Part shown: in pieces, positions 9,415 through 15,923 of the stretch
Layout of the letters: each line of letters opens with the position of its first letter
Numbering within the stretch: position 1 is the first letter of the stretch
Assembly: GCA_028293125.1 (NCBI GenBank)
Contig: JAQGPJ010000089.1
Coordinates: 1-64,000 of the forward strand
DNA length: 64,000 nt
Direction of reading: 5' to 3'
Origin: Verrucomicrobiales bacterium
Lineage (GTDB): Bacteria; Verrucomicrobiota; Verrucomicrobiia; Verrucomicrobiales; V1-33
Made by a program: the position numbers and the translations under genes
The notes under the pieces: generated by a model
Seen by the model: the letters and a program-made list of their open reading frames with translations, nothing else
Databases searched by the model: none
What the model was told of the DNA's origin: nothing

Positions 9415-10194
9415 TCAATCCCCTGCGGGATTCCGGTTCCAGTCCAGGCATTCGGCGTAGGTGACTCCCCTGCCGCCGAAAATATCCAGCGCACTGCCGA
9501 TGGTGACATCGACCCTGCCCCCGGTAAGGTCCTGAGCCAGCCTCAGGTCGTCCAGCGACCGCGCCCCGCCCGCGTAGGTGACGGGGATGGGGCTGTGGCG
9601 TGCGAGGAAGGCGAGGAGCGCCTCATCCATGCCCGCGCATTTGCCCTCCACATCGGCGGCGTGGACCAGATACTCCGCGCAGGAGCCCGCCAGACGCTCC
9701 AGCACCTGCGGCGTCAGGTCCAAGGTGGTCCGGGTCTGCCAGCGGTTCATGCAGACGCTCCAGCCGCCCTCCGGATCGCGGCGGCAGCTGAGATCGATCA
9801 CCAGTTTTTTCGGGGTGGTGATATCCCGCAGCTCCTCCAGCCGGTCCGGCAGCCACTGCCCTTCCGGCGAGAACAGCCAGGAGGTGACGATGACGTGGGA
9901 AGCCCCCGCCTCCAGCCACGCGGCGGCGTTGTCCGCCCGGATGCCACCCCCGGCCTGCAGCCCGCCCGGCCATGCAGCCAGCGCTGCGCGCGCGGCCTGC
10001 TCATTGCCGGGCCCCAGCATGATAAGATGTCCCCCGGTCAGGCCATCACGGCGGTAAAGATCCGCATAATACTCCGCTGGGTATCCGCTTTCAAAATTGG
10101 TGACCAGCCCGCCGCCATCGTCCGACAGCGTGCCCCCCACAATCTGCTTCACACGGCCATGATGGAGATCGATACAGGGACGGAACCGGGTCAT
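9415..10194 (-). CDS. hisA: ProFAR isomerase HisA of the eukaryotic (HIS6) type
   Basis: Amadori isomerase that converts ProFAR to PRFAR in histidine biosynthesis; cytoplasmic TIM barrel of 259 residues from ATG 10194. The motifs match the fungal/plant HIS6 type rather than common bacterial HisA: FRPCIDLHHGRVKQIVGGTL, VTNFESGYPAEYYADLYRRD, LTGGHLIMLGPGNEQAA, GGLQAGGGIRADNAAAW, ASHVIVTSWLF, LVIDLSCRRDPEGGW, AADVEGKCAGMDE and SALDIFGG. Catalytic aspartates are CIDL near the start and ADVEG in the second half. No other his gene is near. Confidence 0.9.
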   Translation of the reverse strand: MTRFRPCIDLHHGRVKQIVGGTLSDDGGGLVTNFESGYPAEYYADLYRRDGLTGGHLIMLGPGNEQAARAALAAWPGGLQAGGGIRADNAAAWLEAGASHVIVTSWLFSPEGQWLPDRLEELRDITTPKKLVIDLSCRRDPEGGWSVCMNRWQTRTTLDLTPQVLERLAGSCAEYLVHAADVEGKCAGMDEALLAFLARHSPIPVTYAGGARSLDDLRLAQDLTGGRVDVTIGSALDIFGGRGVTYAECLDWNRNPAGD

Positions 10195-12035: not shown

Positions 12036-12776
12036 CTATGAAGGGCTGCGGGGAGTGCGCATCGCGGTCTCGGCTTCAGACAAAACAGCTTGGTTATCCC
12101 AGTCGGAAAGTGCGGTGCCGGAGCCCGGCGTGCTGAATTCCGCCAGATCCGCCAGCCGGGGCAGGCAGCGGGTGAGATTGTCCACAATGGTGATTTGGGC
12201 GGTGCGGGCGGTGCGGGAGAGGGGATTGAGGTCGATGGTGATGACCTGCTTGCCGTTTTTGACCAGGGCTTCGCAGCGGTCACCGTCCTCCAGAGGCACG
12301 CAGACCACGTCGGCCATGAGGATGCCCTCGGGATGCACCCACTTCCGGTTGTGGTCGATGTGGCTGATGGCGTGGGTCCGCGAGGGCATCAGCACCCTGT
12401 CCGCTCCCGCCTCCAGCAGCATGGCGCGGATGGCCTGCTCCCGCTCCGGCGAGGTGTGGAAGATATTCACCTCCAGCCGCGCGCCGGTGGCTTTGGCGAG
12501 CCGCACCAGATCGCCCGCCGCCATGGCGCAGGCATTGCCGTTCACGGAGATCACCGGATGCCGTGCCGCCCTCAGCGCGGCGGCGGCGGCGGCGATGGCG
12601 CGCTGCGCAAAAGGATGGGTCCGCTCCCCCAGCAGGTAATCAAACGCCTCGCCCCGGCCATGGGCGATCAGGCCATGGAGGGAGGTGACCCCACGCTGCA
12701 CCCCCGCCACGATGCGCTCGCGGGTGATGAGGGAAAGGTAACGCGGATGAGTGGTGGGGACATCGGAGGCGGGCAT
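12036..12776 (-). CDS. Archaeal-type 4-phosphopantoate--beta-alanine ligase (phosphopantothenate synthetase)
   Basis: 246 residues from ATG 12776. The frame is open upstream but that part is unrelated. Signature blocks match the archaeal PPS family (formerly DUF137): HPRYLSLITRERIVAGVQRG, LIAHGRGEAFDYLLGERT, PVISVNGNACAMAAGDLV, ADVVCVPLEDGDRCEALVKN and ITIDLNPLSRTARTAQITIV. In archaea the enzyme joins 4-phosphopantoate and beta-alanine with ATP to make 4'-phosphopantothenate, replacing the bacterial PanC/PanK order. If active, the organism should also have a pantoate kinase, which is not in this window. About 40 residues past the conserved core look family-unlike. The gene stands alone behind an AT-rich upstream region. 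Confidence 0.88.
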   Translation of the reverse strand: MPASDVPTTHPRYLSLITRERIVAGVQRGVTSLHGLIAHGRGEAFDYLLGERTHPFAQRAIAAAAAALRAARHPVISVNGNACAMAAGDLVRLAKATGARLEVNIFHTSPEREQAIRAMLLEAGADRVLMPSRTHAISHIDHNRKWVHPEGILMADVVCVPLEDGDRCEALVKNGKQVITIDLNPLSRTARTAQITIVDNLTRCLPRLADLAEFSTPGSGTALSDWDNQAVLSEAETAMRTPRSPS

Positions 12777-13352: not shown

Positions 13353-15923
13353 GTGAAACGAACTGTGATTTATCCCGTGCTTCGCGTGGACCGGGATCTG
13401 ATACTGCTGGAAAAATTCGAGGCCGCCAGACCGCACCGGGACTGGCATGCCTGCCCTCTGGGCACCATGGATTCCGGTTGGCGGATGAGGCGGCGCCCGC
13501 TGCTGAAAGGCCCGCTGCCGTCGCCGGCGCTGCGCGGCCTGGCGGCGGCCTGGCAGCGGCTGGGCGTGGCGGTGCCTTCAGCGGAAACCCTGGCGGACCT
13601 GCTGCTGGTGCTGCGGATGGTCCCGGCGTCCCCAGCGGGGGCGAACACCCGGTCGGCCGCTCCGCCGGGGCTGAGCCACCGCGGGCCGGTGGATATCCGT
13701 GGAGGGCTCGGCTGCGGCCAGGCGGTCCGGCGGATGCTGGACCTGCTGCATCCGCACCGCCATGAGGCGCTGCGCCAATTGAGACGGCAGGGGCTGGACC
13801 CGGCGGACTTCAGGCCGTGGCTGGACGGGGATGCGGCTCCGCCCGCCAATCCGCTTGAGGCCCTGCCGGCGGCAGTGGCTGAAAAATGGGTGCCCTGGCT
13901 GAAGCCTGACAGGGTATCCCCGGAAGAAGGCACCGCTTTTCTGAGAGTGATCCAGGGAGTGGAGCTGGACCGGGAGGCTCTGACGGTTTCCGCCGCCGGC
14001 ACCGGCTGGCTGCCGCTGATCGCCGGCGAGCCGCCGGAGATGCGTTGCGCCCTGCTGAGGGTGCTGCTGGCAACGGGGGCGCTGGAGCGGAATCCGCCCC
14101 CGCGCACGCACCGGCTGCTGGCCACTCTGCGCTGCCTTTCGCAGCCTGACACCTGGCTGGAAAGAGCGCGATGGACTTTGAAGGCCTTGGCGGAGGGGGC
14201 TGCTCCCGCTTACATCGCAGCCACTCTGCGCTGGCATTTGAGGCACAGCCTCCATCTGCCGGAGATTCCGCCGGATGCCGCCAAACCCCCCGCGCGGCTG
14301 CTGCGCCTGCTGATGCGGCACGGCGGCGGCGACCACAAAGATGAGCCGGCGGAGGTCTGGCGGGCGCTGAGCCTGGACCGCGACGGCACTTTTGGCCAGG
14401 CGGCCCGCGCCTTTCTCGGCCGTGGTAGCCGTATTCCGTCGTGGGGACGGAATCTTTTCAGTGATTTCTCCCGCTTGGATCCCAAAAATCCTGATCACCT
14501 GTGGCGCCGCGCCCTTTATCTCCGGTTGGCGCCCCGCCTTCTGGCTGAGGCCCGGGTCATGAATCCTGAAAACAGGCATGCCTGCTGGTGCTTCACGGAA
14601 AAGTGGATCAATGATGTCCCCGAGACTTGGCCGGGGATGGAGGAGGATCTGCTGTTCTGGCTAAGACGGACGGGGGCGGCACCGGTGGCGCTGCCAAGTA
14701 ACGGCTCATGGTTCCTTGCCTGCTGCTGCACTCGGCTGACGCCGCAGGGAAGGGCTTTACTGCGGACCTGGACCGCCGAGGACTTCCGGCGTTTCCGCAG
14801 ACTGGCCGACAGCTGGGGCTTTAACCGCAGCATCACGGACGCTCTGGTGCCGGACAACATTCCGCGTGAATTTTTATCCCGGGCTCTGCACCGTCATATG
14901 CGGCAAATGGTGGCCATCCTGTCGGCTCTGTCACAGCTGAGGCCGGAGCATATCCGGCGCGTCTGGCAATCCATGGCGGAGCATCCGCTGTGCTCCTGCC
15001 ATCCGGAGACCATGCCGCTGCGGGAGGCGGTGGTCCTGCTGGAGGCGGTGTCCGCGGGACGCCAGGGAGTGCCGGCCCTTCCGGGGTCGGTGCGGCGGCT
15101 TATTGCTGAAACGGACAGCGGTGATGGCACCTCATTCGGAAAGGCACAGGGTCCTGTCCCCGCCGCGCGCTTCGCGGAGGCCCGGAGCCAATTGGCCAAA
15201 CGGTGGTGGCAGCTGGCCGTGCAGGTGCTGGATCAGCTGGTGGATTGGGAAATCCGCCGTGGATTCCCCGGTCTGCGGAACGACAGCGGGGTGCAGCTGC
15301 ACACCCTGTGCATGGCCATCAGCAACCGGGAGTCGGAGGAAAATGCCGCCGCCACCCGGAGCATCGTGCGCGCCGGCAGCCATGGGCACGCGGACCGGAA
15401 CTGGGCTCTGGATCTGCCTTTGAACCGGCGCTGGTTGGCCACGCATCCGAAGGCGGGGCATTCCGTCTGGCGGGAGGGTTTCGCCGTGGCGGTGCGGATT
15501 CCGGAGGCGGGTGAAATCACCCTGTCCTTTGAGGACGACCTTCAGGAGATCCTCCGCATGGGCACCCGGTTCGGCACCTGCCTGAGCTTGGGCGGCTGCA
15601 ATGATCACTCGGCGGCGGCAGTGGCCTTGGATGCCAACAAGCGGCTGCTTCAGGCCCGCGACGCCTCCGGGAAAATCATCGCCCGGCAGCTGCTGGCCCT
15701 GTCCGAGGAGGGAATGCTGGTCTGCTTCGCGGTCTATGCGCACCGGAGCCGGACGGAGCTAAATGCCGCTTTCGCCACCTGCAATCTGATGTTGTCCCAA
15801 GTGCTGCGGCTGCCCATCTGGCGCAGCCGTGAGGACTATGAGGTGGCCGGCATTGTCTGCAAAGACTGGTATGATGACGGGGTCTGGGATTACTGGAAGG
15901 AATCGGTGCCGCTGGCCTCCTGA
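13353..15923 (+). CDS. Orphan 856-residue protein of unknown function
   Basis: GTG start at 13353. No signal peptide and no transmembrane segment, so probably cytoplasmic. Residues about 1-700 are arginine-, leucine- and tryptophan-rich and look like stacked helices without a recognisable repeat. The C-terminal 140 residues look like a separate conserved domain: ITLSFEDDLQEILRMG, FGTCLSLGGCNDHSAAAVAL, DANKRLLQARDASGKIIARQ, and a final CKDWYDDGVWDYW. This layout, a buried cysteine followed by an ARD-G-IAR strand pair, recalls large hypothetical proteins of Planctomycetes and loosely the PcfJ-like fold; I would not assign a function from that. It is a single gene with no partner. Confidence 0.8.
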   Translation: MKRTVIYPVLRVDRDLILLEKFEAARPHRDWHACPLGTMDSGWRMRRRPLLKGPLPSPALRGLAAAWQRLGVAVPSAETLADLLLVLRMVPASPAGANTRSAAPPGLSHRGPVDIRGGLGCGQAVRRMLDLLHPHRHEALRQLRRQGLDPADFRPWLDGDAAPPANPLEALPAAVAEKWVPWLKPDRVSPEEGTAFLRVIQGVELDREALTVSAAGTGWLPLIAGEPPEMRCALLRVLLATGALERNPPPRTHRLLATLRCLSQPDTWLERARWTLKALAEGAAPAYIAATLRWHLRHSLHLPEIPPDAAKPPARLLRLLMRHGGGDHKDEPAEVWRALSLDRDGTFGQAARAFLGRGSRIPSWGRNLFSDFSRLDPKNPDHLWRRALYLRLAPRLLAEARVMNPENRHACWCFTEKWINDVPETWPGMEEDLLFWLRRTGAAPVALPSNGSWFLACCCTRLTPQGRALLRTWTAEDFRRFRRLADSWGFNRSITDALVPDNIPREFLSRALHRHMRQMVAILSALSQLRPEHIRRVWQSMAEHPLCSCHPETMPLREAVVLLEAVSAGRQGVPALPGSVRRLIAETDSGDGTSFGKAQGPVPAARFAEARSQLAKRWWQLAVQVLDQLVDWEIRRGFPGLRNDSGVQLHTLCMAISNRESEENAAATRSIVRAGSHGHADRNWALDLPLNRRWLATHPKAGHSVWREGFAVAVRIPEAGEITLSFEDDLQEILRMGTRFGTCLSLGGCNDHSAAAVALDANKRLLQARDASGKIIARQLLALSEEGMLVCFAVYAHRSRTELNAAFATCNLMLSQVLRLPIWRSREDYEVAGIVCKDWYDDGVWDYWKESVPLAS

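Follow-up and report, generated by a model that had tools for sequence, protein, structure and literature searches.

Cells cannot do without coenzyme A (CoA), and the way it is made is a textbook example of how the domains of life differ. In bacteria, PanC condenses pantoate with beta-alanine first and pantothenate kinase (PanK, as CoaA or CoaX) phosphorylates afterward, PanK being the usual point of CoA feedback. The archaeal route to 4'-phosphopantothenate, described for Thermococcus kodakarensis, runs through pantoate kinase (PoK) and phosphopantothenate synthetase (PPS, 4-phosphopantoate--beta-alanine ligase), a pair described in 2019 as unique to archaea, and CoA feedback in T. kodakarensis acts on ketopantoate reductase (PMC6650551). 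The PanK of Picrophilus torridus, cited in PMC6650551, also concerns a crossing between the archaeal and bacterial routes, but in the opposite direction, with an archaeon possibly relying on a route of the PanK type. The present case involves a bacterial family, related to Akkermansia, that appears to make CoA with the two enzymes thought to be confined to archaea and to have lost the two bacterial ones. In a search of open-access literature, which takes in few subscription papers and no preprints, no report of PoK or PPS in bacteria was found.

The starting point is a single gene in the window, by which is meant the whole 64,000-nucleotide stretch of DNA that was analyzed. The gene lies at positions 12036..12776 on the minus strand and encodes 246 amino acids from an ATG at 12776; its product begins MPASDVPTTHPRYLS..., and homologues start at about the same position. 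The plus-strand frame over this interval is broken by a stop, and the three peptide blocks from which the initial annotation had recognized an archaeal-type 4-phosphopantoate--beta-alanine ligase all fall in the one open minus-strand frame. Curated models match over nearly the full length of the protein, with 208 bits against Pfam PF02006 (cut-off 26.4), 321 bits against NCBIfam NF010324 (cut-off 227), and a narrow pass at 303.9 bits against the equivalog NF041123 (cut-off 300). The nearest solved structure is the T. kodakarensis ligase itself (PDB 3wdk, E 4e-64), together with 4mb0 (E 2.5e-63); identity to the solved T. kodakarensis and T. onnurineus enzymes is 50-52% (50% for T. kodakarensis) over a nearly full-length alignment. 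Across 76 aligned PPS sequences, the solved archaeal enzymes among them, 86 columns are at least 97% conserved, and the window protein keeps 85 of these. Its AlphaFold model (pLDDT 87) finds PPS structures in all of its top 18 PDB fold matches (E 4e-21 to 4e-19, TM 0.86-0.91), and the first match of any other kind follows at E 3e-4. Chance is excluded as the source of such a match. With curated cut-offs passed, 3wdk nearest, and the fold in agreement, the family assignment is confirmed, and the protein is predicted to carry out the ATP-dependent ligation of 4-phosphopantoate and beta-alanine. Neither of the two observations that might have unsettled the assignment was made: all but one of the strongly conserved residues are in place, and the phylogeny did not move the protein into an unrelated enzyme group.

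An archaeal-type gene in a bacterial assembly raises the question of contamination, particularly as many genomes of the window's family are metagenome-assembled genomes (MAGs). In the source genome (6.48 Mb, 99.1% complete), the contig that holds PPS spans at least 64 kb and carries ordinary bacterial genes, among them the neighbors tdh, kbl, and aqpZ (bacterial-type by NCBIfam) and hisA, with aroE and the genes for ribosomal proteins S9 and L13 recognized nearby by eye from their translations. Third-position GC content (GC3) is 0.83 for PPS and 0.63-0.88 for its neighbors. The closest relatives of the protein belong to MAGs that bear the titles Verrucomicrobiales and Akkermansia, 11 further family genomes have an orthologue, and in three other assemblies the orthologue adjoins the same sugar-isomerase-like gene. 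The bacterial neighbors, the similar GC3, and the orthologues elsewhere in the family thus rule out an archaeal contaminating contig, and contamination of the bacterial MAG as the origin of PPS is left with a vanishingly small probability. Two neighboring genes deserve mention in their own right. The HisA encoded three genes from PPS (window 9415-10194, minus strand) is a second non-standard enzyme, scoring 347.6 bits with the eukaryotic-type model TIGR02129 and just 54.5 bits with the bacterial TIGR00007, each with a cut-off of 229. An open reading frame of 856 amino acids adjoining PPS (window 13353-15923, plus strand) has no Pfam or NCBIfam match.

Whether such a gene adds to a bacterial pathway or stands in for part of one depends on what else the genome encodes. 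PanC (PF02569), CoaX (PF03309), and CoaA (TIGR00554) were searched for in the nearly complete source genome and none was found. CoaA likewise gave nothing over its cut-off of 235 bits in the ten genomes of the family that were searched; matches of 41 bits in G005 and 24 bits in G061 were rejected on that ground. The search for type II PanK gave no match, but no control genome gave one either, so its outcome says nothing about the enzyme's absence. With that reservation, a duplicate pathway, one of the options offered in the initial annotation, is unsupported.

The same genome does encode an archaeal-type pantoate kinase homologue, for which the initial annotation had recommended a search. A motif search for GHMP kinases beside PPS gave nothing useful, since the homologue carries the motif FGCGFGMSG and not the usual GLGSSA; a family search then recovered five GHMP kinases in the source genome, one of which is the PoK homologue. 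Its gene lies outside the window, non-adjacent to PPS, on the plus strand of contig C48 (134851-135693; locus L114:3852-4694). In the PDB the protein is closest to the pantoate kinase of T. kodakarensis (6jbc, E 1.4e-14), followed by a homoserine kinase at 0.003, and when the family profile is used the same structure leads at E 1.9e-24 with the next at 1.2e-7. Among NCBIfam models, the two for pantoate kinase score 147.9 bits (NF040725) and 76 bits (NF041122), and any other model 31 or less. The score against NF040725 falls short of the equivalog cut-off of 380 bits, which was reached by no searched genome and by none of 14 control genomes, four archaea included, and is consequently very strict. 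The C48 protein is best described as a PoK homologue with a predicted PoK function and not as a member of the NF040725 equivalog. The residues of the T. kodakarensis motif GLGDV-x-x-Q-x-x-GG are all kept, except L136, in at least 26 of 27 PoK sequences. For structure, the homologue of a Latescibacterota MAG (L075) stood in for the window genome's copy; its AlphaFold model (pLDDT 92.6) matches 6jbc at E 1.6e-22 and TM 0.84, with the next match at 7e-15, some seven orders of magnitude behind in E-value.

The distance of this likeness (25% identity between the L075 homologue and T. kodakarensis PoK, and a score under the NCBIfam cut-off) leaves room for a different reading, in which PPS takes unphosphorylated pantoate or works with an unrecognized pantothenate kinase, the bacterial order of steps is kept, and the GHMP kinase acts on another substrate. 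The lack of a type II PanK match in the control genomes is a further point in its favor. However, pantoate kinase leads the matches in both sequence and fold by many orders of magnitude, searches for CoaX and CoaA found neither, and, as set out below, PoK and PPS co-occur over several phyla, adjacent in five bacterial loci and with CoaBC next to them in one bacterial locus and one archaeal. A retained bacterial order is accordingly quite improbable.

Within the order, 12 of the 13 genomes sampled from the window's family have PPS, against none of 44 from the other families, whereas PanC shows the reverse (0/13 against 42/44), as does CoaX (0/13 against 29/29). Each of the three contrasts gives a Fisher p of about 1e-11, a value that treats the genomes without regard to relatedness. 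PoK orthologues are present in 11 of the 13 family members, the two without being 75% and 77% complete, and none was found elsewhere in the order. The swap thus follows taxonomy and is family-wide, something the initial annotation did not foresee. Since none of the 13 sampled members yielded PanC or CoaX, it probably took place before the family diversified. In two genomes from another family of the order (G044 and G053, family f3), neither PanC nor PPS was found, and these organisms may be auxotrophs, incompletely assembled, or users of another route.

Absence of PanC and PanK would by itself be consistent with auxotrophy, and the cells might salvage pantothenate or later precursors, with PPS and PoK surviving as relics or serving another pathway. 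A relic, however, would neither retain nearly all of its conserved residues nor persist in almost every genome of a family. PanB, which makes ketopantoate, has been retained, and salvage of pantothenate itself needs a pantothenate kinase, of which none was found. Salvage is on this evidence a very improbable explanation, and replacement of the bacterial enzymes by PoK and PPS continues to be the preferred one.

The genes on either side of the exchanged steps have a different history. PanB of the source genome groups with PanB from other families of the order (support 97/98), and CoaB, in the short unfused form found in its order and not as a CoaBC fusion, groups there as well (96/97). Because PanB and CoaB group with the order, whose other families yielded neither PoK nor PPS, the ends of the pathway appear native and the middle exchanged. 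In the PoK tree, which has one outgroup row, the window's family forms one clade (99/97). In the PPS tree, with four archaeal rows, bacterial and DPANN sequences lie together across a long branch from Thermococcus (100/100), and one row of the family (L003) is weakly placed (70/42); a search of the archaeal phylum of G067 for more rows added one sequence. As a separate observation, PanB in the source genome is part of a FolK-PanB fusion, a single 456-amino-acid frame on contig C88 (locus L164:1471-2838, minus strand) with FolK (HPPK) at residues 29-156 and PanB at residues 200-446. Similar frames are present in L167, L170, and L171; the fusion was not seen in L168, L173, L176, or L177 or in the other families of the order that were looked at.

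The initial annotation likewise gave no hint that the swap recurs in several other bacterial phyla. Relatives of the window PPS at about 55-63% identity are found in many Poribacteria, in Latescibacterota and Gemmatimonadota, in one Levyibacteriota MAG, and in two DPANN archaea, a list that is a lower bound, as its search patterns were short segments taken from the window protein, and whose phylum labels are MAG record titles, some of which may be wrong. PPS is rare in the one DPANN phylum that was sampled (2 of 80 genomes), and plasmid and viral collections held no relative at the limits used. The combination of a PoK homologue and PPS, with PanC and CoaX not found, recurs in each of the eight Poribacteria chromosomes that were tested and in MAGs from Latescibacterota, Gemmatimonadota, and Levyibacteriota. 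One of 23 further genomes tested, the Poribacteria MAG Plut_88885 (G078), has a PanC of 335.6 bits (contig C499:12208-13032). No other genome found here to carry PPS has PanC as well, and this one may owe it to a binning error or may possess a true double pathway.

Gene order in these phyla bears directly on function. PoK and PPS are adjacent in four bacterial loci (L071, L074, L075 from Latescibacterota, and L077 from Gemmatimonadota); the order is CoaBC-PoK-PPS in Levyibacteriota (L054) and PanB-CoaBC-PoK-PPS in a woesearchaeote (L030). Such clustering with other genes of CoA synthesis strongly supports a CoA role for the pair. The Gemmatimonadota locus additionally has a gene of the ComA (phosphosulfolactate synthase) family upstream of PoK-PPS (L077:1492-2286).

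Taken as a whole, it is highly probable that PPS and the PoK homologue provide the archaeal route from pantoate to 4'-phosphopantothenate, replacing bacterial PanC and PanK within a patchwork pathway. PoK would phosphorylate pantoate with ATP, and PPS would then condense 4-phosphopantoate with beta-alanine, again using ATP, such that phosphorylation would precede condensation, the inverse of the bacterial order. PanB upstream and CoaB downstream, presumably along with CoaC, CoaD, and CoaE, would be the organism's own bacterial enzymes, giving a pathway with bacterial ends and an archaeal-type middle. We infer both activities as well as the exclusivity of the route; the supply of ketopantoate reductase and beta-alanine is presumed, and any direction of transfer is likewise presumptive. 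Of the mixed and archaeal-style routes suggested initially, the mixed one fits best, PanB and CoaB grouping with the order's own copies and PoK and PPS occurring in no other family of the order.

Compared with the T. kodakarensis route, both enzymes belong to the same families, keep the conserved residues, and take the place of PanC and PanK. Unlike in that system, the host is bacterial, the bacterial PPS groups with a few DPANN archaea and apart from Thermococcus, and PanB and the short CoaB group with bacterial relatives of their own order. With the bacterial PanC-PanK route the pathway shares its start (pantoate and beta-alanine), its end (4'-phosphopantothenate), PanB, and CoaB; it differs in that PanC, CoaX, and CoaA were not found and in the order in which the two steps would occur.

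More broadly, if a bacterial family and several further phyla have fully replaced their enzymes, the archaea-only rule for PoK and PPS would be broken, and groups that look auxotrophic under standard annotation would be given a sensible CoA route. A more far-reaching proposal, to which we give somewhat less than an even chance, is that PoK-PPS is an established bacterial route to CoA, the sole one in several phyla, representing an old lineage shared with a few DPANN archaea and missed by annotation because bacterial PoK scores below model cut-offs. If so, given that Levyibacteriota (CPR) have it, the rare DPANN copies could have come from bacteria and not the reverse. Finally, because PanK, the usual point of feedback in bacteria, was not found, control of CoA synthesis in these organisms would have moved and would have to sit elsewhere.
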